DNA from: an uncultured Pelagibacteraceae bacterium
Lineage (GTDB): Bacteria; Pseudomonadota; Alphaproteobacteria; Pelagibacterales; Pelagibacteraceae
Assembly: GCA_902605865.1 (NCBI GenBank)
Contig: CACLEJ010000002.1
Span: forward strand, 1 to 64,000
Direction of reading: 5' to 3'
Length of the DNA stretch: 64,000 nucleotides
In this document: positions 681-17,329 of the stretch, piece by piece
How the letters are laid out: each line of letters begins with the position of its first letter
Numbering within the stretch: position 1 is the first letter of the stretch
Position numbers and translations under genes: made by a program
Notes under the pieces: model-generated
Databases searched by the model: none
Seen by the model: the letters and a program-made list of their open reading frames with translations, nothing else
Told to the model about the DNA's origin: nothing

Positions 681-1346
681 ATGAATATTAAAATGACTAA
701 AAATCTAAAAAATTTCTTTCTAATAATTGTTTTTACAATTTTTTCATTAAATCAATCTTTAGCTTTAGAATTAAAAGTACCAAAAAATTTAAAATCACTC
801 AGCGGTGGATCAGGTGGCTTAAGTTTAAAAGATACCAAGACAAAATTCACTACAATATTTTTTGAATCAGCTTTAGAATATATGGAAGCTCAATATCATT
901 TATTTAACGCTTTAGAAATGAACGATGAGGCTGGCAAAACAAGAAAATCAATCGAGTTTGTAAAGAATAAAAAAAATAAAGAGGGCAAAAGATTAACAAA
1001 TGCATTTAATTCTGTTTCAGACAACTCTACAGCTATACAGGGTGCACTCACAAAAGAGGCAGCCATTAGCACACAAGCCAAAGTTCACTATGCAAAAGCT
1101 CTGCCACATGCTGTAAAAGGTTTAATGGGGACAATTCAGCTTCCACCGGAAGCAAAAAACTTACTAGATGCAATTAAGGCTGATAAAATGGCCATGTTAA
1201 AGCTTGGATCATTTGTTAAAGTATTGCCAAAAATTCCACAATATGTTCAAAATGCTACAACAGTGGGCAAGTTAATTGTTTCAGGAGCAAAAAGCAGAGA
1301 AGTTGAGGGTGCTGAAGATGCCACAAATAAGTTAGGTGATCTTTAA
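681..1346 (+). CDS. Secreted helical protein of unknown function (paralog B)
   Basis: A 221-residue protein with an N-terminal export signal (about residues 1-29, ending near SLALE). An internal Met at residue 5 is an alternative start. The rest is predicted helical. It resembles the C-terminal 200 residues of the protein at 3985-5088: both have an aromatic-rich 'YMEAQYHLFNALE' / 'YLRALELLNRAYE' helix, a 'YAKALPHA' / 'YEKALPYA' motif and a closing '(V/F)SGAK' followed by an acidic tail. It is followed 21 bases later by the FlgT/CsgG-like gene and is probably co-transcribed with it. No family name can be assigned. Confidence 0.8.
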   Translation: MNIKMTKNLKNFFLIIVFTIFSLNQSLALELKVPKNLKSLSGGSGGLSLKDTKTKFTTIFFESALEYMEAQYHLFNALEMNDEAGKTRKSIEFVKNKKNKEGKRLTNAFNSVSDNSTAIQGALTKEAAISTQAKVHYAKALPHAVKGLMGTIQLPPEAKNLLDAIKADKMAMLKLGSFVKVLPKIPQYVQNATTVGKLIVSGAKSREVEGAEDATNKLGDL

Positions 1347-1367
1347 TTTTTCCTAAAGAGTTTAATA

Positions 1368-2624
1368 ATGTCTAAAAATTATAAAATTATTTTACTAAAC
1401 TTATTTTTTTTTTTTATTTTTAATGTTTCCTATTCAGAAATTTCTTATATTGAAGTAAATTCCAAAGGAAAAGCTGCAACATATGATGTTGCATTAAAAA
1501 AAGCTCTAAAAGGAGCAGTTTCAAAAGTAAATGGTGTAACATTAAAAACAGATTCTGTTTTAGAAATAATTGATAAAAGCCTAACAACAAATGAAGGTAG
1601 CACAAGTTCTTTAGGAAGAAATCTGAAAGAAAATATTTCTGAAAAAACAGGTGGTTCAATAAAATCTTATGAAATACTAAATGAGTATAAAGATCCAAAT
1701 GGTTTAGAAGTAGTTGAGATAAGAGCAACAGTTGCAAAATATGTTTTATCTAAAACTGCAAACAGAAAAAGAATGGCAATAGTTCCTTTTAGAATTAATT
1801 TAAATGAAATTTCTATTTACGGAAAAACAGGGTTTGACGATGCAGAAAGTTTAAAAAAATATCTCAATCAAGAATTTACAAGTTATTTTGTCCAAACAAG
1901 AAAATTTACAATATTAGACCGAGAATTTGACAATGAAATTAAAGCTGAATTAAATAGTTTGGAAAATTCTGGCAAAATAGAGGATCAAGTAAAAATAGGT
2001 CAAAAATTATTCGCAGACTATATGATTGTTGGTAGGCTTGATTTTTTAATTTTAGAGGAGATTGAAAAAAAATTCTTAACCACAGAAAAAATTTTAAAAA
2101 AAAATATGGGTACCTTAAATTTTAGCTATAGAGTTATAGACGTTGTAACAGGTCAAATTAAGTATTCATCTAAAGTAAATTTAGAAGTTGATTTAAAAAA
2201 ACAAAGCCAACCTCTACCTTATATGTTTAATCTAACAGCTCAAAATGCTGGTTTAGAAATTATGTACGCAATATATCCAGTACTAGTGGAAAAAATTGAA
2301 GGTGATCTGTTATATTTAGGACAAGGTGGTAATCAAATCAAAGTTGATGATGTATATTCAATTTACGAGAGAACCGAAAGCAAAATCAAAGATTCCTATA
2401 CAGGTGAAACGCTCGGAAATGTTGAAAAGATCGTTGGCAAAGCTACAATAATCGAGAGCAGTTCGAAGTTTTCAGTAGCTCAAATTATTGAACAAAAGTA
2501 TGATTTAAGTGAGGATTTTAAGTCGAGAAAATATATGGTAAAACCAATCAAAGAAGTTAAAAAAACAAAAAGAAGTAATGATAAAATCAAAAAGAAAAAG
2601 AAAGCAATTGATCAAGAATGGTAA
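1368..2624 (+). CDS. Secreted FlgT/CsgG-like envelope protein
   Basis: A 418-residue exported protein with a signal peptide at about residues 1-23. Three parts can be seen. Residues 25-125 resemble the N-terminal domain of FlgT/LPP20-type proteins ('KAATYDVALKKALKGAV' followed by a beta-rich segment). Residues 138-270 resemble a CsgG-like fold ('RMAIVPFRI', 'TILDRE', 'LFADYMIVGRLD', 'YRVIDVVTGQI'). Residues 290-375 resemble the FlgT C-terminal SH3-like barrel ('VDDVYSIYERTE...TGETLGNVEKIVGKATI'). The tail is lysine-rich. FlgT belongs to the flagellar basal body and CsgG to the curli secretion pore; no flagellar or curli genes are visible here, so the role is unknown. The gene overlaps the next one by 7 bases, which implies co-translation. 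Confidence 0.72.
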   Translation: MSKNYKIILLNLFFFFIFNVSYSEISYIEVNSKGKAATYDVALKKALKGAVSKVNGVTLKTDSVLEIIDKSLTTNEGSTSSLGRNLKENISEKTGGSIKSYEILNEYKDPNGLEVVEIRATVAKYVLSKTANRKRMAIVPFRINLNEISIYGKTGFDDAESLKKYLNQEFTSYFVQTRKFTILDREFDNEIKAELNSLENSGKIEDQVKIGQKLFADYMIVGRLDFLILEEIEKKFLTTEKILKKNMGTLNFSYRVIDVVTGQIKYSSKVNLEVDLKKQSQPLPYMFNLTAQNAGLEIMYAIYPVLVEKIEGDLLYLGQGGNQIKVDDVYSIYERTESKIKDSYTGETLGNVEKIVGKATIIESSSKFSVAQIIEQKYDLSEDFKSRKYMVKPIKEVKKTKRSNDKIKKKKKAIDQEW

Positions 2625-3943
2625 AATTAATTAAATTTCCTCTAATATTTTTCTTTCTAACATTTTTATTAACTGGTTATTCCTTAGCAGAAGATAATCC
2701 AGATTTAAATCCAGATCCTGAAGGTGGAGCAGTTTTTGTATCAACCCCAACAAGAAGTGAAGCTGAAAATTTATTAAAAGAAAAAGGTTGGAAAAAAGGA
2801 AGAAACGATCGAAAAGATGGTTCATATTTTTACATATCTATTGGTTATGGTGAAATTTCAACAACAAGAGATGATAAAATGATTCATGATGCAAGATACA
2901 ATGCTTTCATTGAAGCATTTACAGAGGCAAAATCAAATTATGTAAGATCTATGGGAGAACAAATTACAAAAGAAGTTTCAATTAAAACTTATGAAAATCT
3001 TATGCCAGATACAATGGCAGAAGATGCAATTAAGTCTGCTGTAGGCACTGATAGTGGAGAGTTTGATAAACTAAAAAAACTTATTAGTCTTAAATTTGAC
3101 AGTGCGTTAAAAAAAGAAGGATACAATCCAGAATTAGCCGATGCAGAAAAACGTGCTATACAAGAAAAAATTTTAAGGTCTAGAGAAATTAATACTTTTG
3201 CAACTGCTGCTGCTCAATCAATGGTAGAGGGCTTTCAATCTTATAGAACTTTTGAGGGTGGAAAAAAAGGTGAAAGAGGATCTATTACAGTTGTGGCTAT
3301 ATGGAGTCCAAAATTGAAGCAACTAGCTGAGGCAGTCTATTCCTCGTCCATAAATGTACCTAAAGGTAAAGCTAAAAAACCAATAGAGGAACAATTAATA
3401 CTTGATGACCCCAACGTTTTATTAGCATCATTTGGTGTAAAAATGTTTACTAATGAAGTCGGAAATATGGTTCTCGTGTCTTATGGCCACGCATCACCAA
3501 GTTTTGAAAACGACCCAGGCGCACTATCCTCAGCATGTGATATGGCAGAGAGTAAAGCGAAAGAAAACATAGTTACATTTGCAAAAGAACAAATAGTTTT
3601 TAGTAGTATGCGAAAAGAAACCGATAAGACGGAAACTTTTGAGAGAGCTGGAATAGAGGCAAATAGAAGTATGAATGGAAGGGAATTTAATGATTTCATA
3701 AATAGTAAAAGTGCTATGAAACTAGAAGGGTACAATATTATAGGTACTTACCCTATAAGAAATACTGCATTATATAATTCAACTGATTGTGTGGCCGTGG
3801 TTCAATGGTCCCCAGAAGGTGTTGAGGGTGCAAATATAATTAAGAAAGATATGAGCTCTTCTTCTTCTACTGGTTCCTCTGATGCCTCAACACAAGACGC
3901 CCAGTCTACTACCTCTGGGCAATCAAGTAGTGACGATTTTTAA
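2618..3943 (+). CDS. Secreted acidic protein of unknown function in FlgT/CsgG-like locus
   Basis: A 441-residue exported protein with a signal peptide at residues 1-24 (cleavage probably after SLAEDN). A Pro/Asp-rich linker follows, then a mixed alpha/beta body beginning 'YFYISIGYGEIS', and a low-complexity Ser/Thr/Gln tail of about 30 residues. The body has two similar halves in which a 'GYGEIS...ARYNAFIEAF' or 'SYGHAS...CDMAESKAKENI' strand-helix unit recurs, as in the repeated domains of LPP20/FlgT-type proteins. I cannot give a named family. Its 7-base overlap with the preceding gene suggests that the two products act together in the periplasm or outer membrane. Confidence 0.72.
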   Translation: MVKLIKFPLIFFFLTFLLTGYSLAEDNPDLNPDPEGGAVFVSTPTRSEAENLLKEKGWKKGRNDRKDGSYFYISIGYGEISTTRDDKMIHDARYNAFIEAFTEAKSNYVRSMGEQITKEVSIKTYENLMPDTMAEDAIKSAVGTDSGEFDKLKKLISLKFDSALKKEGYNPELADAEKRAIQEKILRSREINTFATAAAQSMVEGFQSYRTFEGGKKGERGSITVVAIWSPKLKQLAEAVYSSSINVPKGKAKKPIEEQLILDDPNVLLASFGVKMFTNEVGNMVLVSYGHASPSFENDPGALSSACDMAESKAKENIVTFAKEQIVFSSMRKETDKTETFERAGIEANRSMNGREFNDFINSKSAMKLEGYNIIGTYPIRNTALYNSTDCVAVVQWSPEGVEGANIIKKDMSSSSSTGSSDASTQDAQSTTSGQSSSDDF

Positions 3944-3984
3944 ATCAACTTCTAAAAAACGTATAAAACTTAATTAAGTATTTT

Positions 3985-5088
3985 ATGTTTTTTATAAGAT
4001 TTATTCTAATTTTATTAATTACAAGTAGTTCCCTAAATGCAAAAACAATAAATTTAGGAAGTGTGCTTAACCACGAACCTTTATTAAAGGGTGAAAACTT
4101 AAAAAAATTTCTAACCGATCATAGATTGGTGCTTTCAAGAGGTGGAAGAAATATTCTGTTTGAATTTCAAGGTAAGACTTATGCAGTTATAGAAAATGAA
4201 AAAATTGTACAAAAAGGGACTTGGAAAATGAGTCTTTTAAAAAAAACAGTTAGGTTAAAACCATCTAAAGGAAAATCATTTTATTTTAAAATACTTAAAA
4301 ATAAACCAATTATATTTTATTTTAACGGTAATCCAGGAAAAGAAGGTGTTAAAAAAACTACTTATAAAATTACTAAGTCTAGCAAAACTGGAATTCAAAC
4401 ATTAATTGCTTCTTATAGCGGATCCGCCTTAAACTTTGATCAACAAGTAAAAGCTAACAAAAATAAACTTAACAAAGTTGTAAGTGGAGCTATATCAAGT
4501 ACTTTAGGATTTTCTGAACAAATGGGACAACAGTTTGGTACTACAACTGAAGTAAGTCACTATTTTTTTCAGGCATCTGAGAATTATTTGAGAGCATTAG
4601 AATTATTAAATAGAGCTTATGAGAACAATACAGAGGCAGATAAAATTTTTGCGTCATTAGCATATATGCAAAATAGCAAAATAAGCGAGGCAAAAAGATT
4701 AAATTCAACAACATTAATTATTAATCAATCACATGAAAAAATTAAATCTAAAATTCAAGACTCAAGTCACGTTTTTAGTCAAGTAGGAAGAAGTTACTAT
4801 GAAAAAGCATTGCCATATGCATTTGCAGCAATGGAGTCTACTGGAAATTTAGCTAATGCATCCTTAAGAGCAATCGATAATATAAAAAGTAATACTGGAT
4901 CTGATATGAGTAGTATGTTTGCTAAAGCTGCGGATACTTTTTCTTTGGTAAATACAGCAACAAAGATGCCAAAGTTTGTTGCGAATATGAGAAGCACTCT
5001 GAGACTTGTCTTTTCTGGAGCAAAAGAGAAAAAAATTAGAGATAATGGTAACCTAAATAAAGCTTTAGATGAATTAAATCTGGACTAA
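3985..5088 (+). CDS. Secreted two-domain protein of unknown function (paralog B')
   Basis: A 367-residue exported protein with a signal peptide at about residues 1-19. Residues 20-140 form a beta-rich domain ('ILFEFQGKTYAVIENEKIVQKGTWKM') that is absent from the 681-1346 protein. Residues 165-367 are helical and match that paralog, including 'YEKALPYA', 'KMPKFVANM' and 'FSGAKEKK'. The gene is therefore either a fusion of an extra N-terminal domain to the B module, or B is a truncated copy. It ends 8 bases from the convergent paralog-A gene. The helical module has no family name known to me. Confidence 0.78.
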   Translation: MFFIRFILILLITSSSLNAKTINLGSVLNHEPLLKGENLKKFLTDHRLVLSRGGRNILFEFQGKTYAVIENEKIVQKGTWKMSLLKKTVRLKPSKGKSFYFKILKNKPIIFYFNGNPGKEGVKKTTYKITKSSKTGIQTLIASYSGSALNFDQQVKANKNKLNKVVSGAISSTLGFSEQMGQQFGTTTEVSHYFFQASENYLRALELLNRAYENNTEADKIFASLAYMQNSKISEAKRLNSTTLIINQSHEKIKSKIQDSSHVFSQVGRSYYEKALPYAFAAMESTGNLANASLRAIDNIKSNTGSDMSSMFAKAADTFSLVNTATKMPKFVANMRSTLRLVFSGAKEKKIRDNGNLNKALDELNLD

Positions 5089-5096
5089 TAGATATC

Positions 5097-6269
5097 TTAT
5101 TTAACTCTATCAATTATTATTTTTAAATCTTTTAATTTTTTTTTAATTTTTTTCTTTGATACTTCTTTCATCCATTTTTGATTTTGTTTTGAAATATTTT
5201 TAGAAAAATTATCAAATAAAATTTCAAGATTATAATAATATTTACGCCAATTATTTATATTAACTTGTCCTTTGGGTATTTTAACTTTAGTAACACCTCT
5301 TAAAGTTTCATCAAAATAATATTTATTAATATCAGGTTGAAAAATCGCAATATTTACAAAAGAACCATATAAATAAAGATCTTCAACAGCAGTTGATTGT
5401 GCAAGAACTTTTTTAAAACCTTTTAACTCAATTTTTATATGATAATCAGGATCTGGTATTTTTATTTTATATATTTCATCAGACTGAACAAATCTTAACT
5501 TCATTGCTTTACCAATTGATTGACCTTCTATATATGGAACAATTGCAACATTATGGTTTTGAGATAATCTTTTTGAAAATGATTGAGCTATTAAGTTCTG
5601 CATAGAGTTTTCAAATTTTTTAGCATTTTCCGGTAAATCTTTAAAAGCTCTTTCTTGAATAGCTACATTTTTAACTCCAATTCTTAAATCATATTTTCTT
5701 TTAATATCAAATTGATTAATAATTTTTACTAACTCTCTAAAAGGTTTGTCATTTAAGTAAAAACTCTTTATTCTTGCAAGAACATCGTCATCACTTATTT
5801 CTTTTTTTGATAATAATGGTATTTCAAATTCAAATGGTATTGAGGCTATTAAACTCTTATCTGAAAAATCATAAAACAATACTTGAAAATAGGCATCATA
5901 AAAACCTGAAAAATTATTTGAGGAATAATTGTATTCTTGTGAAAATTCTTCATGCTGTAAAGCAACAGACATTACAATTGCATTATCTAAATATTTGTCA
6001 AAATCTAATAAATTTTTAGTATTTAAATTAATATTTTTAAATTTTTTCTCTTTTAATTCTTTTAGTAGACTATCAGAAATAATATTTAATTCTTTATCGC
6101 TTTCCTTTTTTTCAAGTAATTTAGATGTGTACTGTGTGAACATCTTATTTGACTCATAATTATTTGAAAAAGAAAATCCTGAATAAAATATCTCAATTTT
6201 CTCTTTTGAAAATGAATGCGGAATAAAAATAAAATAAATTAATATAATTCTATTTATTATGTTTTTCAT
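5097..6269 (-). CDS. Secreted protein of unknown function (paralog A)
   Basis: A 390-residue exported protein with a signal peptide at about residues 1-22. It contains 'FYSGFSFSNN' just after the signal, 'LIASIPFEFEIP' near residue 150 and 'RKYDLRIGVKN' near residue 190, all matching the partial protein at 1-565. The C-terminal half is beta-rich, then Lys-rich in the last 30 residues. It is transcribed toward the B' gene and away from the dehydrogenase at 6342. The function is unknown; the position suggests a partner of the FlgT/CsgG-like proteins. Confidence 0.78.
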   Translation of the reverse strand: MKNIINRIILIYFIFIPHSFSKEKIEIFYSGFSFSNNYESNKMFTQYTSKLLEKKESDKELNIISDSLLKELKEKKFKNINLNTKNLLDFDKYLDNAIVMSVALQHEEFSQEYNYSSNNFSGFYDAYFQVLFYDFSDKSLIASIPFEFEIPLLSKKEISDDDVLARIKSFYLNDKPFRELVKIINQFDIKRKYDLRIGVKNVAIQERAFKDLPENAKKFENSMQNLIAQSFSKRLSQNHNVAIVPYIEGQSIGKAMKLRFVQSDEIYKIKIPDPDYHIKIELKGFKKVLAQSTAVEDLYLYGSFVNIAIFQPDINKYYFDETLRGVTKVKIPKGQVNINNWRKYYYNLEILFDNFSKNISKQNQKWMKEVSKKKIKKKLKDLKIIIDRVK

Positions 6270-6341: not shown

Positions 6342-7346
6342 ATGAGGTCTATACCTATTGGTGTGATTGGATTAGGAAATGCTGGTGCTCCCATTTTAGG
6401 AAATTTATTTCGATCTAATAAATATAAATTAGTAGCTTTTGATATTGATAAAAATAAATTAAATGATGTTCCTGATAATATTATAAAAGCAAAATCAATA
6501 AAAAATTTAGCTGAGCAATGTAAAGTAGTTATAACATGTTTACCTAAACCTGAACATATTTTACAGGCTGTTGATGGTGAGGATGGGTTATTACAAAATG
6601 CATCTACTGATATGGTTTGGGTCGACACTTCTACAACTGACTTTAAACAAACACAAAAATTAGCAAAAAAAGCAAAAATGTATGGTGTTTCAATGTTGGA
6701 GGCTACTCTAACTGGAGGTGTTCATGCTTTACAAAATAATAATATGGTTTGTTTAGCCGGTGGAGAAAAAGAAATATTTGAAAATTGGAAAGAGGTTTTA
6801 CAAGATGCAATAGGTGAAGTAGTTGTTTTATGTGGTGATATAGGGGCAGGGGCAATTGCAAAAGTTGTATCAAACATGCTTGCATTTACTAATATGGTTG
6901 CAGCATCTGAATGTATGATGATTGCTAAAAGAGCAGGATTAGATTTAGAGAGTTTTTTTGATGCTATTAGAGTTTCAGCTGGAAATTCCTTCGCATGGGA
7001 AACAGTTGTGCCTCATATTTTTAATCAGAAATATGAAGCTGGATTTACAATGGAGTTAGCATGTAAAGACATGAATTTAAGTTATTTACTAGGGCAACAT
7101 TTAAATGTACCTTTAGATTTACATATGGAAATTAAGAAGAAGATGGAGAAAGCAAGATTACAATATGGAGATAGTGAAGGATGTTATGTTTATCCACGCA
7201 CATTAGAAGATGAGCTTGGTGAATCATTATCATTAAAAGGATGGGATAATTGGGGTTATGACATTAAAGTTGTGGATGGATCAATTGTTGTAAAACATAA
7301 AAACAGACCTGTTTCAAAACATCCTCAGTATAATTCAAAGAATTAA
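6342..7346 (+). CDS. NAD(P)-dependent beta-hydroxyacid dehydrogenase (HIBADH family)
   Basis: A 334-residue member of the 3-hydroxyisobutyrate dehydrogenase / 6-phosphogluconate dehydrogenase-like superfamily. It has the Rossmann motif GLGNAG at residues 10-15, a TGG substrate-loop motif at 124-126 (usually SGG) and the catalytic lysine at about residue 174 in 'GAGAIAKVVSNML'. The family oxidises or reduces beta-hydroxy acids and includes tartronate semialdehyde reductase and the sulfolactaldehyde reductase YihU. The substrate cannot be read from sequence. The start has a good ribosome site (AAGGATAAATATATG). Its neighbours, a ComA-like enzyme and a TTT transporter, suggest a role in catabolism of an imported organic acid. 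Confidence 0.85.
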   Translation: MRSIPIGVIGLGNAGAPILGNLFRSNKYKLVAFDIDKNKLNDVPDNIIKAKSIKNLAEQCKVVITCLPKPEHILQAVDGEDGLLQNASTDMVWVDTSTTDFKQTQKLAKKAKMYGVSMLEATLTGGVHALQNNNMVCLAGGEKEIFENWKEVLQDAIGEVVVLCGDIGAGAIAKVVSNMLAFTNMVAASECMMIAKRAGLDLESFFDAIRVSAGNSFAWETVVPHIFNQKYEAGFTMELACKDMNLSYLLGQHLNVPLDLHMEIKKKMEKARLQYGDSEGCYVYPRTLEDELGESLSLKGWDNWGYDIKVVDGSIVVKHKNRPVSKHPQYNSKN

Positions 7347-7370
7347 ATATAATTTTTATGTTATTTATTT

Positions 7371-8234
7371 TTATTTATCTTTAACTGAAATTAATTCTGG
7401 ATACTTATCAAATAAAATATTTGCAGGTCTCTCCCCAGACCTTAATGGATCAATTAGCATCACTTGGCTGGGCATAATATTTGTTAAATTGCAGTCTGTA
7501 CCAAAGAGTTCAAAATAATTAAGGACATCTGAGTACCATCTCACTTCAGCTTCCTTTGGTGACGTAACTTCAAATGCTACTTTATTTTTACCAAAATGAT
7601 CAAGCACTCCAGTTAATACATCTGACTTACTATCATGAAGTTCGATTTCTTCATGATCAATAAGCATTGAAAATGCTCCATATTCAAAAAAAGGTTCGGC
7701 ACTTTCAACAATTTGCTTAAATGTTGCAGGAGTATTTTTTTTTGTTTTATTCCATCCACTTTCTGGATGATGTTCATAAATTATATTCATTCCATTTTTA
7801 ATTGCATGATTGCACCAAGCTTTTATTTGATTTTCAGGGATATCTCCAAATGTATTCATGAATTCCATTGCGGAAAATCCTAAGTCAGACGCAGCATCAA
7901 TAGCTTCATTCACTCTTTCTTTTTTAAAAGCTTTAACAAAGTAACCATGATCCAAGTAAGGTTCTATCGAATGTTTTTTATAAAGCGCTATCTTACGTTC
8001 CAACCATTCCTTTGGATGTCCTAGAACTTGCATTGTTGCAATTTTGACATGATCAATCCTGTCTCCAGCAACCTCAAGAAAGTCTTCTAATTCAAGCAGT
8101 CCCATTCTTTCTTGATACCAAGGACCTTCGTCAAAACCTACGTCTTTCAACCATAGTTGTGATTTGGTTCTAGGTTTAGGTTCGATCGTATTTAAATCAA
8201 ATACTTTTGATATTGAATTTTTTGTTTTAGACAT
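7371..8234 (-). CDS. Phosphosulfolactate synthase (ComA)-family TIM-barrel protein 1
   Basis: The ORF track starts at a TTG (8258); I prefer the ATG at 8234, giving 287 residues. The pattern follows archaeal ComA: a 'YLDHGYFVKAF' strand where ComA has a PGGTLFE-type motif, 'DAASDLGFSAMEFMNTFGDI', 'NGMNIIYEHHPE', 'KVAFEVTSP', and the end motif 'CNLTNIMPSQVMLIDPLRSG', which corresponds to ComA 'VNLANI...LE.LRRG'. ComA adds sulfite to phosphoenolpyruvate in coenzyme M synthesis; relatives include plant HSA32. Coenzyme M synthesis is not expected here, so a catabolic or unrelated role is more likely. It is convergent with the dehydrogenase and divergent from the transporter. Confidence 0.65.
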   Translation of the reverse strand: MSKTKNSISKVFDLNTIEPKPRTKSQLWLKDVGFDEGPWYQERMGLLELEDFLEVAGDRIDHVKIATMQVLGHPKEWLERKIALYKKHSIEPYLDHGYFVKAFKKERVNEAIDAASDLGFSAMEFMNTFGDIPENQIKAWCNHAIKNGMNIIYEHHPESGWNKTKKNTPATFKQIVESAEPFFEYGAFSMLIDHEEIELHDSKSDVLTGVLDHFGKNKVAFEVTSPKEAEVRWYSDVLNYFELFGTDCNLTNIMPSQVMLIDPLRSGERPANILFDKYPELISVKDK

Positions 8235-8324
8235 ATTTTTTGATTTTATATTAGTCAAATAGATGAATTTCTAACCAAAAACGTCATTTTTAATAATCTT
8301 GAGGATAAAAAAAAATATAATTTG

Positions 8325-8354
8325 TTGAAAAACCCATAATGAACACGTTATACT
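8325..8354 (+). promoter_or_regulatory. Candidate sigma70 promoter for the TTT transporter genes
   Basis: TTGAAA at 8325-8330 and TATACT at 8349-8354 are separated by 18 bases. They lie 31 bases upstream of the tctC-like ATG. A strong Shine-Dalgarno run (AAGGGGGG, 8373-8380) sits between, one of the most G-rich stretches in the window, which suggests high translation of the binding protein. Confidence 0.45.
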
Positions 8355-8385
8355 ACTTATAACAATATTCTCAAGGGGGGAAATA

Positions 8386-9459
8386 ATGCGTAAAATTCTA
8401 ATATTAATATTAATGTCGTTATTCTCGTTTGTATCCATTGGAAATGCAGATGTGAATTTCGCAGGCAAAACAGTTACATGGGTTGTGCCATTTAAAGAAG
8501 GTGGTGGTACGAGTAGATTTGCAAGATTTATTCAACCTTTCTTAAAAAAATATTTACCTGGAAATCCTGATGTACAAATCATGCACATACCAGGAGGTGG
8601 AGCTATTAAAGGTTCAAATTATTTTGAAAAAAATGCTAAAGCAGATGGAACTTTTATTTTTGGATGCTCAACTTCAGTAATAGTAAACGTCGCTACTGGA
8701 AATCCACTTGTTAAATATAATCTTAGTGAATATCGACCAGTAGTTTTGTTACCACAAAATACTCATTGGTTCACACGTTCAGATTTAGCTGAGCCTCACG
8801 ATCTATCTAAAATTAAAGAGAGAAAGCTGGTTCTTTATGCATTGAAAACTCCTGCATCTGCAGATTTATTTCACATATGGATTTATGAGAAGCTTGGTAT
8901 CAAAGGAGCTAAACCTATACCTGGTCTTTCATCTTCAGGAGGTTATCAAGCATTCCTAAGAGGTGAAATTCATCTAAGTTCACATGGTGCAGCAAATTAC
9001 GTAAAAAAAGTTAAGCCTGAAATAGAAAAAGGAAAAGTCGTAGATTTAATGACATTAGGAATTATTGGAGCTGACGGTTCAGTTTCTAGAAATCCTTTGG
9101 CACCAAATGCACCTACATTTCCTGAAATGTATGAGAAGGTAAATGGTAAAAAACTTGAAGGTGATGACCTAGAAGCATACTATGCAATAGGTGCTGCATG
9201 GTCTCAAGCATCTAAAGCAATGATGCTTCCAGCAGATGCATCCGATGAAATAGTAAAAGCATACAGAGATGCAGCTATTAAAATGACAAATGACCCAGAG
9301 TTTAAGGCTAAAGCTGTAAAAGCTCTTGGACCATTTCCATTAATCATAGGAGAAGAAGCTGGTGAAATTATTAAAAAGGCTGCAGTATTTTCTGATACTA
9401 CTAAAAAGCAATTAAATGCAGCTCTAAAGAAACATAAATTCACATATAGAGTTCAATAG
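8386..9459 (+). CDS. TTT-family periplasmic substrate-binding protein (TctC/Bug-like)
   Basis: A 357-residue solute-binding protein with a signal peptide at residues 1-22 (ending SIGNA). It has the Bug/TctC pattern: 'VTWVVPFKEGGGTSRFARFIQPFL' near residue 30, which corresponds to the family's PGGGTD loop, then 'MHIPGGGAIKGSNYF', and a C-terminal 'DEIVKAYRDAAIKMTNDPEFKAKA' helix. The first motif is diverged and lacks the usual Asp after Gly-Gly-Thr (Ser instead), so the ligand may not be a standard di- or tricarboxylate. A terminator-like hairpin follows at once, before the membrane component. Confidence 0.85.
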   Translation: MRKILILILMSLFSFVSIGNADVNFAGKTVTWVVPFKEGGGTSRFARFIQPFLKKYLPGNPDVQIMHIPGGGAIKGSNYFEKNAKADGTFIFGCSTSVIVNVATGNPLVKYNLSEYRPVVLLPQNTHWFTRSDLAEPHDLSKIKERKLVLYALKTPASADLFHIWIYEKLGIKGAKPIPGLSSSGGYQAFLRGEIHLSSHGAANYVKKVKPEIEKGKVVDLMTLGIIGADGSVSRNPLAPNAPTFPEMYEKVNGKKLEGDDLEAYYAIGAAWSQASKAMMLPADASDEIVKAYRDAAIKMTNDPEFKAKAVKALGPFPLIIGEEAGEIIKKAAVFSDTTKKQLNAALKKHKFTYRVQ

Positions 9460-9475
9460 AACAAATAAAAAAAGT

Positions 9476-9505
9476 GCTGCTAGCTATTAGCTAGCAGCTT
9501 TTTTT
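9476..9505 (+). terminator. Strong hairpin plus T-run between tctC-like and tctA-like genes
   Basis: GCTGCTAGC-TATTA-GCTAGCAGC forms a perfect 9-bp stem and is followed by seven T residues that end exactly at the ATG of the next gene (9506). A matching A-run lies upstream. It has the form of an intrinsic terminator. Partial read-through would give more binding protein than permease, as is common in transporter operons. Confidence 0.8.
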
Positions 9506-11491
9506 ATGGAACAATTATTAGCTGCACTTTTTCAACTTTTTGAGCCTACACATTTAGCATTTTTATTTGCAGGTACTTTACTTGGTTTAATTGTTGGTAT
9601 ACTTCCAGGTATGGGTGGAACATCAGGTTTAGCCCTTGTTTTACCTTTTGTTTTTACAATGGAACCGTCACATGCTCTTGCAATGATGATCGGAGTTCTG
9701 GCACCTACGACAACTTCAGATACTTTTCCTGCTGTGCTTATGGGAGTGCCTGGTACTGCAGGATCTCAAGCAACAGTAATGGATGGCTTTCCACTTTCTA
9801 AAAAAGGCATGGCAGCAAGGGCGTTAAGTGCTGCCTTCAGTGCTTCGTTGCTTGGAGGTATCTTTGGAGCTTTTATATTATCAATATCAATTTATTATGC
9901 CATTCCAATAATAATGGCTTTTGGATTTGGAGAACAGTTCCTATTAGTTGTGCTTGCTTTATTAATGGTGGGAGCTCTTACAGGTGACAATTTATTCAAA
10001 GGTATTGCCTCTTGTTTTTTAGGATTAATTATTGGATCAATTGGAACTGCTCCAATCACAGGAGATCCAAGATATACATTTAATACATTATATCTTTTAG
10101 AAGGTGTTCCTCTTGTTGTTGTTGGACTTGGATTATTCGCAATTCCTGAAATCGTTGGACTTCTAGACTCCAAAGGTTCAATTGCAAAATCACTTAATAC
10201 CAAAAAAGGATGGTTCACAGGTTTAAAAGATGTTGTAAAAAATTGGTTTTTAGTTTTACGATGTTCTACTCTTGGTTGTCTTGTTGGAGCTTTACCAGGG
10301 TTAGGGGGAACAGTAGTTGATTGGATTGCGTATAGTCACTTAAAACAAACAACAAAAGATACTTCTCAATTTGGTAAAGGTGATATCCGAGGAGTAATAG
10401 CACCTGAGTCTGCTAATAATGCTAAAGAGGGTGGAGCATTAATTCCAACATTAATTTTTGGAATACCTGGTTCTGGTAATAAAGTTTTATTGCTTGGAGG
10501 TTTTGTTCTCATTGGAATTGAACCTGGTTTAGATATGGTAACAACAAACCTAGATCTTACCTATCTAATGATTTGGTCATTAGCTATTGCAAATATTTTA
10601 GGTGCTGGGATTTGTATGGGCTTTTCATCTCAAATTTCAAAATTCACTCTAGTTCCATATTACATACTTGCACCTGTCATGGTTTGCTTAATATTTTTTG
10701 CAACATTTAATATTAATAGAGACTGGTATGATTTTATTGGACTATTATCATTTGGTATAATTGGTATTACCTTTAAAAATTTTGGTTGGTCTAGACCGGC
10801 ACTTTTAATTGGTTTCTTTTTATCAAGCAAAGTTGAACTGTTAAGCTATCAAACTCAAGCAGTATATGGTTTAAGTTTTTTATCCCGTCCAGTTTCAATA
10901 ATTCTTATAATTTTGTGTCTTGCTACTATCGTTCTTTTGACAAAACAAAAGTTTGACAACAATTATAGGTCTGATCTTATTAAAGGTAAGCTTACTCAAA
11001 TTTATTATATAGTCATATTACTCTGTCTACCTTTATCTATGATTTGGTTTACTAGTAGTTTAGATTATCGTGCTAACTTGTTTCCAATAAGCTTAAGTGT
11101 AATAGCTTTATCACTCTTAGTTTTCATACTTATTGTAAAAATTGCTGACTTAAAAAATTTACCATTTTTAAATAACACATTGATGAAATTTGCTCGGTCA
11201 AATATTTTTGAAATTAGTGGTAACTTCAATAATCAACTTTTTTATTATTTAAGTTTTATTGGTTTCTTATTAATGAATTTTATATTTGGTTTTCCAATTG
11301 CTGCAGCACTTTTTATTAATATGTTTATATTATTTCACAATAGGAAAGCTTATGTCTCATCAATTTGCATTTCTGCTGCATTGATGGTAATACTCTGGGC
11401 GTTATCGTCTCTGCTAACTTTACAGTTTCCAAATGGGTTGATAGGATTATTTGTTGATTTACCTTGGTGGCTTGGTGGGCAATTGAATTAA
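9506..11491 (+). CDS. TTT-family transporter, TctA-TctB fusion protein
   Basis: A 661-residue membrane protein. Residues 1-480 are TctA: 'GILPGMGGTSGLALVLPF' near residue 32, and the second repeat 'GALPGLGGTVVDWIAYS' then 'GVIAPESANNAKEGGALIPTLIFGIPGSG' near residues 260-330. Residues 490-661 have four hydrophobic segments and TctB signatures ('LDYRANLFPISLSVIAL', 'FGFPIAAALFINMFIL', and a final hydrophobic stretch ending FPNGLIG). Typical TctA has about 500 residues and TctB about 150, so this is a fusion of the large and small membrane subunits. The start codon directly follows the hairpin T-run and has no Shine-Dalgarno sequence. Confidence 0.88.
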   Translation: MEQLLAALFQLFEPTHLAFLFAGTLLGLIVGILPGMGGTSGLALVLPFVFTMEPSHALAMMIGVLAPTTTSDTFPAVLMGVPGTAGSQATVMDGFPLSKKGMAARALSAAFSASLLGGIFGAFILSISIYYAIPIIMAFGFGEQFLLVVLALLMVGALTGDNLFKGIASCFLGLIIGSIGTAPITGDPRYTFNTLYLLEGVPLVVVGLGLFAIPEIVGLLDSKGSIAKSLNTKKGWFTGLKDVVKNWFLVLRCSTLGCLVGALPGLGGTVVDWIAYSHLKQTTKDTSQFGKGDIRGVIAPESANNAKEGGALIPTLIFGIPGSGNKVLLLGGFVLIGIEPGLDMVTTNLDLTYLMIWSLAIANILGAGICMGFSSQISKFTLVPYYILAPVMVCLIFFATFNINRDWYDFIGLLSFGIIGITFKNFGWSRPALLIGFFLSSKVELLSYQTQAVYGLSFLSRPVSIILIILCLATIVLLTKQKFDNNYRSDLIKGKLTQIYYIVILLCLPLSMIWFTSSLDYRANLFPISLSVIALSLLVFILIVKIADLKNLPFLNNTLMKFARSNIFEISGNFNNQLFYYLSFIGFLLMNFIFGFPIAAALFINMFILFHNRKAYVSSICISAALMVILWALSSLLTLQFPNGLIGLFVDLPWWLGGQLN

Positions 11492-11507
11492 ATAAATAGA
11501 ATTTATA

Positions 11508-12302
11508 ATGACTGATATAACATTTCCAAAATTACCTTTCATAAAAAGAAAGGAAAAACCTCGTGAGACAGGCATAAATTATGTTAGGGCACCTGTTATG
11601 GTGGGAAATTGTATAGATGATTATTTAGAGGCATATGCAAACCTTGTTGATATCTTTAAGATTTCTGGAAAACAAGGTGCAATGATGAGCAAAAAATCTC
11701 TTTTGAGATTTATCGAAACTTGCAAAAAACATAGTGTTCAAGTTGCATTAGGAAATCCAATTATGGACGTTGCATTGTCTGGTGGTAAAGAAGTGGTAGA
11801 TGATTATCTACATACTGTTGTTAATCTGGGTATTGATATAATTGAAATTTCAAGAATAGCTCGTTCTTTAGATGATGATGAAATGTGTAGACTGATCGAA
11901 AATGCAACAGGCAAAGGGATAAAAGTTATTAATGAGGTTGGTGTTGCGTTTGCACATTCTAAGGTTATCGAGGAAGAAATTTTTGTAGAAAGAATTAAAA
12001 TGCAATCTAAAAGATTTATTGAGGCTGGTTCTTGGAAAATATTACTAGAATCAGAGGGTTTAACAGAAAATCTTGATAAAAAAAATTATAGATGGAATGT
12101 AATTGATAAAATTATTAGTCCATTAGAATTAAACCAGTTTATGGTTGAAGCTGATGATCAGGACGTATTATCAAAATATATAGAAATCTATGGTCCTGGT
12201 ATAAATATGATGGTTGATCATAGTAGAGTTCTCAAAATGGAAGATGCACGACTGGGGTATGGACCATCACAATCCCTATGGGGTAAAGTTGTAAAATATT
12301 AA
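11508..12302 (+). CDS. Phosphosulfolactate synthase (ComA)-family TIM-barrel protein 2
   Basis: A 264-residue protein with ComA-like order of motifs: 'YANLVDIFKISGKQGAMMSKKSL' (the KFGWGT-like strand), 'HSVQVALGNPIMDVAL', 'LGIDIIEISRIARSL', 'KGIKVINEVGVAF' (compare ComA 'VLTEVGKK'), 'GSWKILLESEGL', and the closing 'YGPGINMMVDHSRVLKMEDARLGYG' (compare ComA 'FGSSVNLANI...LETLRRGLRG'). It differs clearly from the ComA-like protein at 7371-8234, so the two are distant paralogs, not recent copies. It is 16 bases downstream of the TctA-TctB gene and likely co-transcribed, so its substrate may be the imported compound. Confidence 0.62.
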   Translation: MTDITFPKLPFIKRKEKPRETGINYVRAPVMVGNCIDDYLEAYANLVDIFKISGKQGAMMSKKSLLRFIETCKKHSVQVALGNPIMDVALSGGKEVVDDYLHTVVNLGIDIIEISRIARSLDDDEMCRLIENATGKGIKVINEVGVAFAHSKVIEEEIFVERIKMQSKRFIEAGSWKILLESEGLTENLDKKNYRWNVIDKIISPLELNQFMVEADDQDVLSKYIEIYGPGINMMVDHSRVLKMEDARLGYGPSQSLWGKVVKY

Positions 12303-12391: not shown

Positions 12392-13021
12392 CTAAAAATT
12401 TAATATACCTAAATAATTTAAAGAATTTAAATATTTACTATTTCGAGAGCTTAAAATTGAAAAATCATTTGTGAGATGATTTAAGTTTCTTGAATTCTTA
12501 GTATAGTTGTCAAATTTAACTTCAATTATTTTTTCGGAGGATCTTATCATTTTATTTTTAGGATTATTTAATAAGGATTTATAAATAATATTTCTATCAA
12601 GAGTAATTCTTAAATCTTTATACATGTAATATGATCTAAGATATCGTATGTTGCAAATTTCCAAAAGGTTGTTTTGTTTTAAAAATTTAAATATTTTATC
12701 AGATTTAAAAACTTTATTATTAATGAAGTTACCTTCTTCAAAATTTATTTTTTTTGATAGTTTATTTTCTTTTTTTTTGATCTCAAATCTAAAAAAATCG
12801 TCATTATTGTACCACCTAATTCTAAATTTTTGTCTCTTAGATAAACCAGTTAAATTATCGTTTGCAGATTTTAAATTAATCGTATCAAAATAAATAGAGT
12901 TAACATATCTATCTTGATATACTTTTTTTAAATTATATTTTGTAACTATGAATTTTTTAATATGAAATAAATCATAATCTTTAAAATTATATTTAATTTC
13001 TCTTCTTAAATCAAAATTCAT
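12392..13021 (-). CDS. VTC-domain protein (polyphosphate polymerase-like)
   Basis: A 209-residue protein with the VTC/triphosphate-tunnel order of motifs: 'RREIKYNF' at the N-terminus, 'YVNSIYFDT', 'RQKFRIRWY', 'RFEIKKKENKLSKK', 'RITLDRNI' and 'KIIEVKFDN'. The alternating basic and acidic residues on beta strands would line the tunnel. In yeast Vtc4 this domain makes polyphosphate; the bacterial versions often sit beside CotH-like and DUF4956 proteins and their role is not settled. It overlaps the start of the CDS for the CotH-like protein's 3' end by 11 bases, and is the last gene of the three-gene minus-strand operon. Confidence 0.8.
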   Translation of the reverse strand: MNFDLRREIKYNFKDYDLFHIKKFIVTKYNLKKVYQDRYVNSIYFDTINLKSANDNLTGLSKRQKFRIRWYNNDDFFRFEIKKKENKLSKKINFEEGNFINNKVFKSDKIFKFLKQNNLLEICNIRYLRSYYMYKDLRITLDRNIIYKSLLNNPKNKMIRSSEKIIEVKFDNYTKNSRNLNHLTNDFSILSSRNSKYLNSLNYLGILNF

Positions 13022-15722
13022 AAATTTGACTATTCAAAAGGGTATTATTATATTTATTTCGAACAACAATATCATTAACAATTAAAACATTACCCGATGT
13101 TTTTTTTAAAATTAAATCATCATATTTTTCTTTTAATTTAATATTAGTTGATGAATGTGAAAATTTCTTTTTTTTATTATATGAGGTAATGTCTGCAAAA
13201 AGAGAGTTTTTTATTGAATTTAAATTACCAGTTAGTTTGGATGAGTCCTTTACAGCAATACCAATTTTTGCTTGTTCGATCTTATTGTTATTAATATCAA
13301 CCGAACTTCTTTCTCCTATGGAGAAAGCTTTATCAGAAATATTTTTTAGAATGTTGTTATTGGCTGTTACTTTTGAAAAAGATGTATCTATTGCATCGCC
13401 TTTAACAATTAAAAATACAGAATTGTTAATAATTCCTTCTGAAAAATCTGAGTCTATAGCATCTGAACTTGTGTTTGTAATTTTAGAATTAATGAATTGA
13501 AAGTTAGTTGAAACAAAATTAATAAAATCTTCAGCTATTGAATTTTCAAAAAAACTATTTTCAATTAATACATTTGATTTATAAAAATTTAATCCACCTG
13601 TTAAATTTGATTTTGAATTATTAAAATTTGAAATATTAAAAAATTTGCTATTTTTGATAAGCGTATTATTTGAATTAACTATTTTTATTCCACCCCAATA
13701 GTTACTGTCTAAATTTTTAAAAATTATATTTTCTTTTTTAGTTCCAAGACAAATTAAATCACCATTAACAACTGTAAGTGAACTATTTTTTGCAAAGTTA
13801 AGAATTGTGCCTGGTTCAATGACTAGATTTTTGTTATTAAAAAATAAACGGCCTTTAATATCCCAAATTCCTTTCTTAATCAGGAAATTATCATCATTTT
13901 CAACTATAAAGTGATAATTAGAATTGAACTTATTAGATCTTAAAAAATTTTTTAAAATAAACTTTTTATCTTCAGTAATATATTTTTTTTTAAAAATTTT
14001 ATTATTAAATTTATAAGTTAGTTCAATTTCATCTCCAGGGTCAAATTTATTAAGCAAATCTAAATCTATCAATGTATTTTCTTTATCTATAATTATATTT
14101 TTTTTTAAATTAATTTTTTTTGTTAAATTTTTAATAGATTTAATAGTCAAAGTAGGTTCAAAATAATAATTTATTTGCAACCATTTATTAAAAATTCTTA
14201 AATAAAAATGATCTTTAATTACATCAAAGTTTTTATTTTGTATTTTAATTTTTTTTACGTTATCTTCTGAACTTTTAAAATTTGAATTATCGATATTTAA
14301 AATAATATTATTTTTATCGTTTAGAGAATTAATAGAAAAGATTTCTTTTTTTAATAATTCTTTTGAAGTTTTTATATTGGTATTCATTGTTTGAAATATT
14401 TTTTTTATTTTTAGTTCACAATTATCTAAAGAGTAAATACATACATCTTTTGAATAAATTTTTGTAAATCTATCATTATAATTATTTTCAAAATTTAAGA
14501 TAAATTTAAGCATTTTTTCTAAATATTTTTTCCTGTCTGCGTTGTTGAAAGTAAAAATTAAACTTTTACCAAATTCTGAATAAGTTTTTTCTGTAAGATT
14601 TTCTATTGGATATGGTTCCGTAGGTATTAAAAAAAATTGTTCTAAATATTCATTATAATACACTCTTAAATTATCTCGATAATAAGGATGACTGTCACCA
14701 CCAAAAATTAGTCCTAAAGATGCTATCTTTATTGTATTATCCATATTGCTATAATTATTAACTATTTTAAATTTACTCGGATCTCTTAAATTGATTAATT
14801 CTATATATGAATTGAATAAAGACCGAATATTTACATCTTTATTTTTTTTTGAATTTCCATATGAAAAAAAATGATCTCCTGTTTTTTCTATACCTCTTAA
14901 AATATCTTTATCAAAATCTTTGTATATAAAATTTATTTTATTAAGTAGTTGATACGTTTTAGTATCATCATAATATTTAAACAAAGGAAATTCTCTTTCA
15001 TTTCTATTTTCAAAAAAATCACTACTATAATACTCTTTCATGACCATTGGTCCTAAATGGTCACCATTTAAAATTAAATCTATTATTTTAAGTTTTGGTG
15101 TAAAAATACCATGATGGTTTAAAATATTTGAAAAAATAAATACATCAGGAAAAAATAAAGTATTAAAATTTTGAATAGAAAATTCATCTATATCGTAAAT
15201 TTTACTATTTTTTTTTAAATTAATTTTAAGACTAAATCTTTCATCAATATTCCAATGATCAGGCATATCACCTTTTAATCTTACTTTTGCGTAAATCTCT
15301 TCGTTTTTAAAAATTATCTTTGAATTAACATAGGCTCTTCTATCGTATAGTTGGTTAATTCTTTTTGATTTATTAATATTTTCTTTTAATACCTTGTAAT
15401 TTTTAGAATTTATATTTAAATAAATTTTATCAGGTTTTATTTTATTTTTATAAACAAAAGGTGAGGAAAGAATTAATTCATTCCAATCTTTATTAAAAAA
15501 AGATGGTCCATCTTCTGAGGTGAATTTTGTAATATCAATTATACCAGTAGAAGAAATTATTTTAATTATAGATATTCTTAAATTTTCTTTTGTTTGATTG
15601 AAACTTTTATTAAATAAAATTTTTTGTGAAAAAAAGTAAATAAAAATAAAAATAAAAATACTAATAAAAAAAACTAATTTTTTTTTAAAAACTATTTTCT
15701 TCGTAGAAAATTGAAATTTCAC
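13011..15722 (-). CDS. CotH-like protein with C-terminal parallel beta-helix
   Basis: A 903-residue protein with one N-terminal membrane anchor (about residues 14-33). Residues 100-430 resemble the CotH family, with 'YAKVRLKGDMPDHW', 'SLKINLKKN' and 'HLGPMVMKEYYSSDF'. Residues 620-840 are a right-handed beta-helix region, seen as repeated short 'NNT(L/I)IKNSKFFNIS'-type rungs ('VLIENSFFENSI', 'FQFINSKITNTSSDAIDS', 'VTANNNILKNISDKAFS'). CotH of Bacillus is a protein kinase, but I do not see its conserved catalytic motif clearly, so kinase activity is uncertain. The beta-helix may bind surface polysaccharide. It overlaps the DUF4956 gene by 38 bases. Confidence 0.72.
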   Translation of the reverse strand: MKFQFSTKKIVFKKKLVFFISIFIFIFIYFFSQKILFNKSFNQTKENLRISIIKIISSTGIIDITKFTSEDGPSFFNKDWNELILSSPFVYKNKIKPDKIYLNINSKNYKVLKENINKSKRINQLYDRRAYVNSKIIFKNEEIYAKVRLKGDMPDHWNIDERFSLKINLKKNSKIYDIDEFSIQNFNTLFFPDVFIFSNILNHHGIFTPKLKIIDLILNGDHLGPMVMKEYYSSDFFENRNEREFPLFKYYDDTKTYQLLNKINFIYKDFDKDILRGIEKTGDHFFSYGNSKKNKDVNIRSLFNSYIELINLRDPSKFKIVNNYSNMDNTIKIASLGLIFGGDSHPYYRDNLRVYYNEYLEQFFLIPTEPYPIENLTEKTYSEFGKSLIFTFNNADRKKYLEKMLKFILNFENNYNDRFTKIYSKDVCIYSLDNCELKIKKIFQTMNTNIKTSKELLKKEIFSINSLNDKNNIILNIDNSNFKSSEDNVKKIKIQNKNFDVIKDHFYLRIFNKWLQINYYFEPTLTIKSIKNLTKKINLKKNIIIDKENTLIDLDLLNKFDPGDEIELTYKFNNKIFKKKYITEDKKFILKNFLRSNKFNSNYHFIVENDDNFLIKKGIWDIKGRLFFNNKNLVIEPGTILNFAKNSSLTVVNGDLICLGTKKENIIFKNLDSNYWGGIKIVNSNNTLIKNSKFFNISNFNNSKSNLTGGLNFYKSNVLIENSFFENSIAEDFINFVSTNFQFINSKITNTSSDAIDSDFSEGIINNSVFLIVKGDAIDTSFSKVTANNNILKNISDKAFSIGERSSVDINNNKIEQAKIGIAVKDSSKLTGNLNSIKNSLFADITSYNKKKKFSHSSTNIKLKEKYDDLILKKTSGNVLIVNDIVVRNKYNNTLLNSQIYEF

Positions 15723-16341
15723 AACCTTTTAGCTTTTCTTTTAATGATTGATAATATTGATTTAATTCTATCGTGTTATTAAAATGTACTTTGCCTAAAA
15801 CTAAATTTTGATTATTATTTAATTCAATTTTCAATATCTTAATTTTACTATCTTTTTTAATTGTTTCTAAAAAAGTATGATTATTTTTTTCCTCTTCCCA
15901 TTGAACTGAAATATTGTAATCAAAATTTTTTTTTTGACCTGAATAAAACCATAAAAAAATTAAGATAAATATAAATATTAAAGATGTTAAATATACTTGA
16001 TTTGATCCATAGCCAATACCTAGAGCTATTGATAAAAATAAAAATAATAACTCTTCTGGTTCTTTTATTGGCGTCCTAAATCTCACTATCGAAAGTGCTC
16101 CAACTAATCCTAGGGATAGGGCAATTGAAGATTTTATAATTGTAATTATTAAAAAAGTTACAACTGTTAATATTGGAAGTATTGATGATATTTTCTTATT
16201 TGATAAATCATAATTTGAGTATTTATCATAAAAAAACTTTAATACATAACCACTTAAAGCACAAAATATTAATGATAAAAAAATTATAGAAAAATCATTA
16301 TTTGCTTGTGGCAAAGTCAAATATTTTTCTAACTTATCCAT
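15685..16341 (-). CDS. DUF4956-family membrane protein
   Basis: A 218-residue protein with four or five hydrophobic segments in the first 135 residues and a soluble C-terminal domain of about 80 residues. The signature 'ALSIVRFRTPIKEPEEL' near residue 82 is diagnostic of DUF4956. The family is widely found next to VTC-domain and CotH-like genes, exactly the order seen here (DUF4956, CotH-like, VTC). Its biochemical role is unknown; a part in polyphosphate or cell-surface polymer handling has been proposed from context only. Confidence 0.85.
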   Translation of the reverse strand: MDKLEKYLTLPQANNDFSIIFLSLIFCALSGYVLKFFYDKYSNYDLSNKKISSILPILTVVTFLIITIIKSSIALSLGLVGALSIVRFRTPIKEPEELLFLFLSIALGIGYGSNQVYLTSLIFIFILIFLWFYSGQKKNFDYNISVQWEEEKNNHTFLETIKKDSKIKILKIELNNNQNLVLGKVHFNNTIELNQYYQSLKEKLKGCEISIFYEENSF

Positions 16342-16558: not shown

Positions 16559-17329
16559 ATGATTAAGCCACATATCCTTTTTGATAATACAAAATTATCA
16601 AAAAAAATTAAAAACTTTTTAGATTATAAAATTAAAAATTTATCTTTAAGTAAATGCAATCTAATTATTGTCGTAGGTGGCGATGGCTTTATGCTTTCAG
16701 CGCTTAAAAAGTATAATAAGTATAAAAAACCATTCTATGGTATTAATGCTGGAAATTATGGTTTTCTGATGAATAAATTTTCATCTAAAAATACAATTAA
16801 AAACTTATCTAAAGCAAAGTCAGTTACAATTTCGCCTTTAGAAATGATTGTTAAAAATAAATTTAACAAAACTAAGAAGTCTATCGCAATAAATGAAGTA
16901 TCAATATTAAGACAAAGCAGGCAAACAGCCTCGTTACAAATTTCTAGTGGATCTCAGAAAATTATAAAAAAATTAGTTTCTGATGGAATATTAGTTTCAA
17001 CACCAGCAGGTAGCACTGCATATAATATGTCAGTTTATGGTCCTATACTAAATTTAGATTCAAAGAAGCTGTCAATTAGACCAATTAGTGCTTTTAGACC
17101 ACGAAGATGGAAGGGAAGAGTAGTTAGTGATAAATCAAAAATTGTAATCAAAAACCTAAATATACAAAAACGACCAATTAGCGCAGTAGCAGATAATTAT
17201 GAAGTAAGAAATGCTAAAATTATTTCTATTAAAATAAATAAAAAAATTAAGTTTAATCTTCTTTATGATTCAAATAGAAGTCTTCAAAAAAAAATTAAAA
17301 TAGAACAAATCAGAAAAGAAACAAATTAA
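16559..17329 (+). CDS. nadK: NAD kinase
   Basis: A 256-residue protein that phosphorylates NAD to NADP with ATP or polyphosphate. It shows the catalytic GGDG at residues 40-43, 'NYGFLM' shortly after, the conserved 'INEVSILR' and 'DGILVSTPAGSTAYNMSVYGPIL' (usual form STPTGSTAYS), and a late 'RPISA...D' segment. It is a little shorter than the E. coli enzyme (292). The gene lies directly downstream of tRNA-Leu and its stop codon overlaps the next ATG by one base. It is the only NAD kinase candidate in the window. Confidence 0.92.
   Translation: MIKPHILFDNTKLSKKIKNFLDYKIKNLSLSKCNLIIVVGGDGFMLSALKKYNKYKKPFYGINAGNYGFLMNKFSSKNTIKNLSKAKSVTISPLEMIVKNKFNKTKKSIAINEVSILRQSRQTASLQISSGSQKIIKKLVSDGILVSTPAGSTAYNMSVYGPILNLDSKKLSIRPISAFRPRRWKGRVVSDKSKIVIKNLNIQKRPISAVADNYEVRNAKIISIKINKKIKFNLLYDSNRSLQKKIKIEQIRKETN

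Follow-up and report, generated by a model that had tools for sequence, protein, structure and literature searches.

We describe here a gene cassette from a 64,000-nucleotide stretch of contig CACLEJ010000002.1 of an uncultured Pelagibacteraceae bacterium (this whole stretch being ‘the window’ in what follows), in which two divergent TIM-barrel proteins of the ComA superfamily, ComA1 and ComA2, stand on either side of a complete tripartite tricarboxylate transporter (TTT). By sequence criteria neither barrel is a phosphosulfolactate synthase, and we tentatively propose that the genes form an accessory SAR11 cassette that takes up and degrades a C4-C6 polycarboxylate or hydroxycarboxylate; an aconitate- or tricarballylate-like acid would be its most likely substrate. 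The five open reading frames (ORFs) lie at 6342-12302, in agreement with an initial annotation of this DNA, which had suggested that a C3 sulfonate or a similar hydroxy acid is taken up and broken down by means of ComA-like enzymes used outside coenzyme M (CoM) synthesis. A use outside CoM synthesis, tied to uptake, is borne out by what follows, and a hydroxy acid is plausible; the C3 sulfonate is left unsupported.

ComA1 and ComA2 are divergent members of the ComA superfamily

Profile hidden Markov model searches place both barrels in the ComA family as initially annotated, with scores of 138.8 and 163.0 bits that far exceed the PF02679 gathering cut-off of 25.2 bits (Table 1). They are, as had also been noticed, only distantly alike (23% identity across 236 aligned positions, E 1e-9). 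In a search of PDB sequences the first solid match of each is 1QWG, the ComA of Methanocaldococcus jannaschii, joined for ComA2 by 1U83 from Bacillus subtilis. The predicted fold of ComA2, taken from an AlphaFold model of moderate quality (predicted local distance difference test, pLDDT, of 66) that was used for fold only, also has 1QWG as its top match (TM 0.72); the ComA1 model (pLDDT 48, pTM 0.51) was poor because only close SAR11 relatives were usable, and the structure search was made with ComA2.

ComA is the first enzyme of CoM synthesis. Against TIGR03849 (arch_ComA), the equivalog model for phosphosulfolactate synthase, ComA1 scores 64.1 and ComA2 73.7 bits, some 200 bits short of the cut-off of 280. 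In an alignment of CoM-type proteins (M. jannaschii, B. subtilis, a Nocardioides CoM plasmid and three alphaproteobacterial loci) with many other ComA-like sequences, no row lacks K43, E103, E133 or R240, and this holds for both window proteins. K137, E79 and R170 are invariant among the CoM-type rows and are replaced by E/V/E in ComA1 and by A/D/E in ComA2. R170, part of the GRESG motif, is restricted to CoM-type proteins; K137 is missing only from the ComA2 clade, which has Q (and A in the window protein), and from the ComA1 clade, which has E, and E79 is lost in these same two clades. We infer roles for these residues from conservation rather than from a ligand-bound structure.

In the ComA tree, where some branches are long and the deep order is unsure, both proteins fall outside the CoM clade. 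ComA2 has as its sister clade (100/99) a set of haloarchaeal, Salinibacter and methanotroph proteins, with which it shares ESEG[IL]TE-type and VDH motifs at about 28-35% identity, but it lacks the GG motifs that these carry in two loops, and its partner is a TTT where theirs is MmgE/PrpD. The C-terminal VDH motif of ComA2 may resemble that of plant HSA32. ComA1 has a single companion in its clade, an Allorhizobium ampelinum pAtS4c protein that is its nearest relative beyond SAR11 (about 50% identical) and whose gene ends a sugar-type ATP-binding cassette (ABC) transporter operon without a TTT. A search of 399 genomes of the phylum returned the SAR11 copy and remote matches only; no relative of ComA1 was found in 299 genomes of a family taken for Rhizobiaceae (a search without a positive control), nor in viral contigs.

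Automatic annotation calls nearly all such ComA-like proteins phosphosulfolactate synthase, a label that is probably wrong both here and in many other genomes.

The transporter belongs to a tricarboxylate-linked clade

The TTT is complete, as the initial annotation had it: the permease carries a TctA domain and a weak TctB match (PF07331, 18.9 bits, below the cut-off of 29.1), and the binding protein, which has no Pfam match, is assigned to TctC by homology, since it shares 37-40% identity with alphaproteobacterial proteins from other genomes that are annotated as TTT binding proteins. The window TctAB sits in a 15-row clade of the TctA tree and TctC in a 14-row clade of the TctC tree, both supported at 100/100, and most of the 13-14 clade-mate transporters adjoin genes for TcuA/TcuB, PrpF/4-oxalomesaconate tautomerase, Iso_dh, MmgE/PrpD or AcnA. 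The TTTs of these clusters likewise pair a binding protein with a fused TctA-TctB; where the clusters carry tcuAB/prpF, the window cassette has its ComA-like genes, and tcuA and prpF are absent from it. A genome of the SAR11 family has the same kind of TTT within a tcuA-prpF-iso_dh-acnA cluster (G007:C1:197000-214000), which comprises MmgE/PrpD, a D-2-hydroxyacid dehydrogenase, an isocitrate-type dehydrogenase, TcuA (above its NCBIfam cut-off), the TTT, PrpF and aconitase A (well above).

A TTT for sulfolactate, SlcHFG, is on record (PMC5812351). The sulfonate question was put to the transporter by locating SuyAB-linked TTTs on plasmids and comparing them in both trees. The type of transporter is alike, and a Paracoccus seriniphilus copy beside suyAB-type genes also has a fused TctAB, but the window TTT lies in a separate branch, split from SuyAB-linked SlcHFG at 100/100 in the TctA and TctC trees alike. 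In pairwise scores TctAB reaches 209 bits to SlcFG as against 480-670 to tricarboxylate-type TTTs, and TctC 25 bits to SlcH as against 170-230; the nearest relative of TctAB is about 51% identical.

Neighbours of ComA-like genes elsewhere

We compared 35 non-CoM ComA-like loci, from alphaproteobacterial genomes and annotated plasmids, with four CoM-type loci and with 32 control stretches taken from those alphaproteobacterial genomes (the plasmid loci having no matched controls), using one query set throughout and a range of about 8-10 kb. MmgE/PrpD was found near 21 of the 35 ComA-like loci, near none of the four CoM-type loci and in one of the 32 controls. The corresponding figures for a TTT are 10/35, 0/4 and 1/32, and the single positive control stretch is on a contig that also holds a ComA-like locus. 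TcuA and PrpF were each met at three ComA-like loci and in no control.

One ComA-like locus (L091) has the order GntR, ComA-like gene, tctC and fused tctAB, with a TTT of the window's own subclade, an aconitate hydratase above cut-off nearby and a sulfatase also downstream. Its single ComA-like gene stands before tctC, where the window has two, and belongs to another subfamily; the pairing of ComA with TTT therefore recurs independently.

Queries for sulfonate genes gave a different picture. None of the 35 loci has SuyAB, HpsN or SlcC beside it or a sulfonate-degradation cluster in its vicinity; HpsO, SlcD and SlcH/SlcFG queries found only general short-chain dehydrogenase/reductase, dehydrogenase and TTT relatives; and the one match to Xsc, 22% identical, is annotated as acetolactate synthase. 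TauE-type genes occur at three of the 35 loci (two of them in one genus) and in none of the 32 controls, and are the sole hint of sulfite that is left.

Some further contexts are recorded for their own sake. Seven loci (L077, L078, L079, L150, L151, L154 and L155) have related ComA-like genes clustered with one to four MmgE/PrpD genes and mostly with a gene of the ornithine-cyclodeaminase family, which recalls iminodisuccinate-type chemistry. On a Natrinema halophilum plasmid (L046), a ComA-like gene lies amid LLM flavin oxidoreductases, a TauE/SafE exporter, a CoA-transferase and a TAXI-TRAP transporter, and a sulfite oxidase gene is not far off; of all the ComA contexts this is the most sulfonate-like.

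Layout, conservation and flanks of the cassette

ComA1 is transcribed away from tctC-tctAB-ComA2 across a gap of about 150 bp, and ComA2 follows tctAB after 16 bp (Table 1). For ComA1 the ATG at 8234 is the likelier start, an alternative TTG 24 bp further upstream being possible. The promoter-like site before tctC had the joint top score in our scan and is kept across a 31-copy alignment; the hairpin after tctC is present in 32 of 32 SAR11 copies, with a variable loop and, in one copy, a change in the stem, and is likely to hold expression of the permease below that of the binding protein. An Rfam scan of the cassette gave no match.

Table 1. Features of the ComA-TTT cassette (window coordinates)
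Feature	Position	Strand	Basis
HIBADH-family beta-hydroxyacid dehydrogenase	6342-7346	+	PF03446 4.5e-32, PF14833 9.1e-27
ComA1, 287 aa, divergent ComA-superfamily TIM barrel	7371-8234	-	PF02679 138.8 bits, 2.7e-40
ComA1/tctC divergent intergenic region	8235-8385		Similar length in all aligned SAR11 copies
Sigma-70-type promoter-like site TTGAAA-18-TATACT, 5' of tctC	8325-8354	+	Scan and alignment
TctC-type substrate-binding protein, 357 aa	8386-9459	+	Homology to TTT binding proteins
Intrinsic-terminator-like hairpin, tctC/tctAB gap	9476-9498	+	10-bp stem, 3-base loop, 7 T
Fused TctA-TctB permease, 661 aa	9506-11491	+	PF01970 5.7e-119; PF07331 weak
ComA2, 264 aa, divergent ComA-superfamily TIM barrel	11508-12302	+	PF02679 163.0 bits, 1.1e-47

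The four-gene order, with ComA1 divergent from TctC, TctAB and ComA2, is unbroken in the window and in all 30 further SAR11 copies that are long enough to judge, and the genes that flank it differ between copies. Within the order Pelagibacterales, the ComA pair occurs in four of 147 genomes, ComA1 and ComA2 always together; when named species genomes were searched with ComA2, 31 of the 32 loci recovered belonged to Pelagibacteraceae. Pairwise median ratios of non-synonymous to synonymous substitution (dN/dS) are 0.07 for ComA1, 0.01 for TctC, 0.03 for TctAB and 0.05 for ComA2, and 0.11 for the HIBADH-family protein; the core genes are under strong purifying selection, and a reading of the cassette genes as pseudogenes or spurious ORFs is excluded by these values. 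TctC is 96-100% identical among SAR11 copies.

The dehydrogenase had been placed next to ComA1, with sulfolactaldehyde reductase named as one member of its family. It is adjacent in the window, but in only 12 of 31 SAR11 copies overall (in three more it is one gene removed), and because of this count we moved it from member of the module to optional neighbour, outside the invariant core. The protein falls below every NCBIfam equivalog cut-off tested, reaching 109.5 bits against 348 for sulfolactaldehyde 3-reductase (NF012005) and, as its best score of the set, 166.5 bits against 397 for tartronate semialdehyde reductase (NF008592).

Around the core, the conserved right flank is an NAD kinase gene followed by one for a DmdA-like (dimethylsulfoniopropionate demethylase) protein, at 17329-18477 in the window (376 bits, slightly below the NCBIfam cut-off of 410). 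In L008, L020, L021, L028, L031 and other SAR11 copies without an adjacent HIBADH gene, a putative pair of glucosyl-3-phosphoglycerate synthase and its phosphatase, recognised by reading the sequences, takes a slot beside ComA1 or after ComA2. The window itself has, on the minus strand at 12392-16341, one row of genes for a VTC-domain protein, a large protein that includes a right-handed beta-helix region and a DUF4956 membrane protein, a row not found in this region of other SAR11 copies. Several proteins encoded at 681-6269 have Pfam matches that are absent or weak and uninformative; among them are a DUF6844 protein (2618-3943) and one with weak DUF1759 and NlpE matches (3985-5088).

Discussion

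Building on what was observed (family membership, the conserved unit, selection, the transporter clade and the neighbour statistics), we infer a substrate class, a reaction and an order of steps as follows. The TTT, made up of TctC and the fused TctAB, would import a C4-C6 polycarboxylate or hydroxycarboxylate, on which ComA1 and ComA2 would act next. The published view of ComA is of an enolate mechanism and, by analogy with this family chemistry, the two enzymes might form a metal-stabilised enolate adjoining a carboxylate, such that a group could be added or removed at the beta carbon (through hydration, dehydration, isomerisation or lysis). The product would then pass to central metabolism, with the HIBADH-family enzyme, where present, taking a beta-hydroxyacid product.

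A number of points weigh against this proposal. The cassette lacks TcuA, PrpF, MmgE/PrpD and aconitase, and the assembled genome lacks PrpF; the genes by which the substrate class is recognised at other loci are therefore missing here. K137 and E79, near-universal in the other aligned ComA-like proteins, are lost in both window proteins, because of which the family chemistry may not apply, and the window TTT is a long branch. Part of the 35 loci are interrelated (haloarchaea, and one alphaproteobacterial order), and some of the reference and query proteins were taken from these loci themselves. Finally, there are two contexts that recall sugars: the ABC transporter before the pAtS4c relative of ComA1, and a contig from a metagenome-assembled genome labelled Alphaproteobacteria (L032:1-4880), which begins inside an 82% identical orthologue of ComA2 and continues, on the same strand, with uxaC (glucuronate isomerase), a gene resembling that for fructuronate reductase, and uxuA (mannonate dehydratase). 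TctAB was not found in that genome.

These hexuronate genes and the ABC transporter make a sugar-acid route the main rival, in which the TTT would import an aldarate or uronate, the ComA-like proteins would act as dehydratase or aldolase, and the HIBADH-family enzyme would be a tartronate-semialdehyde-type reductase. It could draw also on the top score of that enzyme (2-hydroxy-3-oxopropionate reductase) and on a listed TTT for galactarate/glucarate (PMC5812351). We think it unlikely, since the transporter clade is linked to tricarboxylate rather than sugar-acid genes, the dehydrogenase is not constant in the cassette, and the hexuronate context is one contig, broken within ComA2 and with a 129-bp gap before uxaC. 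A C3-sulfonate route, in which sulfolactate or 2,3-dihydroxypropane-1-sulfonate (DHPS) would be imported and degraded with the help of ComA-like enzymes that make or break the C-S bond, seems quite improbable. True ComA does couple sulfite with phosphoenolpyruvate, a sulfolactate TTT and a SuyAB-linked fused TTT do exist, TauE-type genes are found near some ComA-like loci, and the source genome itself has, on a contig separate from the window (C4), suyAB-like genes, xsc, a TauE-type gene and aprA. Set against this are the loss of the GRESG arginine, K137 and E79, the far too low equivalog scores, a transporter outside SlcHFG and the want of sulfonate genes at the other loci; moreover, Pelagibacteraceae are reported to have suyAB and xsc as core or near-core genes (PMC12636525), which so do not account for a cassette that is rare. 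Our literature search found no link between phosphosulfolactate synthase and TTTs.

True ComA is reportedly a trimer with its sites at subunit interfaces, and one may imagine ComA1 and ComA2 as unequal subunits of a single hetero-oligomer, with the site partly lost and each inactive alone. Their constant co-inheritance in SAR11 and the different residue losses of the two fit such an arrangement, which we nevertheless regard as a long shot, given that they share a mere 23% identity, lie on opposite strands and have nearest non-SAR11 relatives that are found singly. That both are genuine phosphosulfolactate synthases, for CoM or sulfolactate synthesis, as the automatic label has it, is hardly credible: membership of PF02679 speaks for it, but the distance from the equivalog cut-off, the position outside the CoM clade and the missing CoM-specific residues all speak against it.

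The polycarboxylate proposal for the SAR11 cassette can also be widened, in a form that we hold to be rather unlikely as a whole: the ComA superfamily might be mainly catabolic, given to small-group addition and elimination on polycarboxylates, with the CoM branch as one of several, and the SAR11 pair, both of them strongly altered members that possibly work as one heteromeric enzyme, might act on a marine polycarboxylate that SAR11 is not yet known to use. The automatic name implies that bacteria and haloarchaea carry out CoM or sulfonate chemistry where their gene neighbourhoods point to polycarboxylates, and the neighbour statistics offer a testable function for the entire enzyme group. SAR11 bacteria are abundant in the sea; the cassette is rare among them, as an accessory trait, but its binding protein is highly conserved, such that a single ligand screen of this protein could reveal a new dissolved-organic-carbon substrate.

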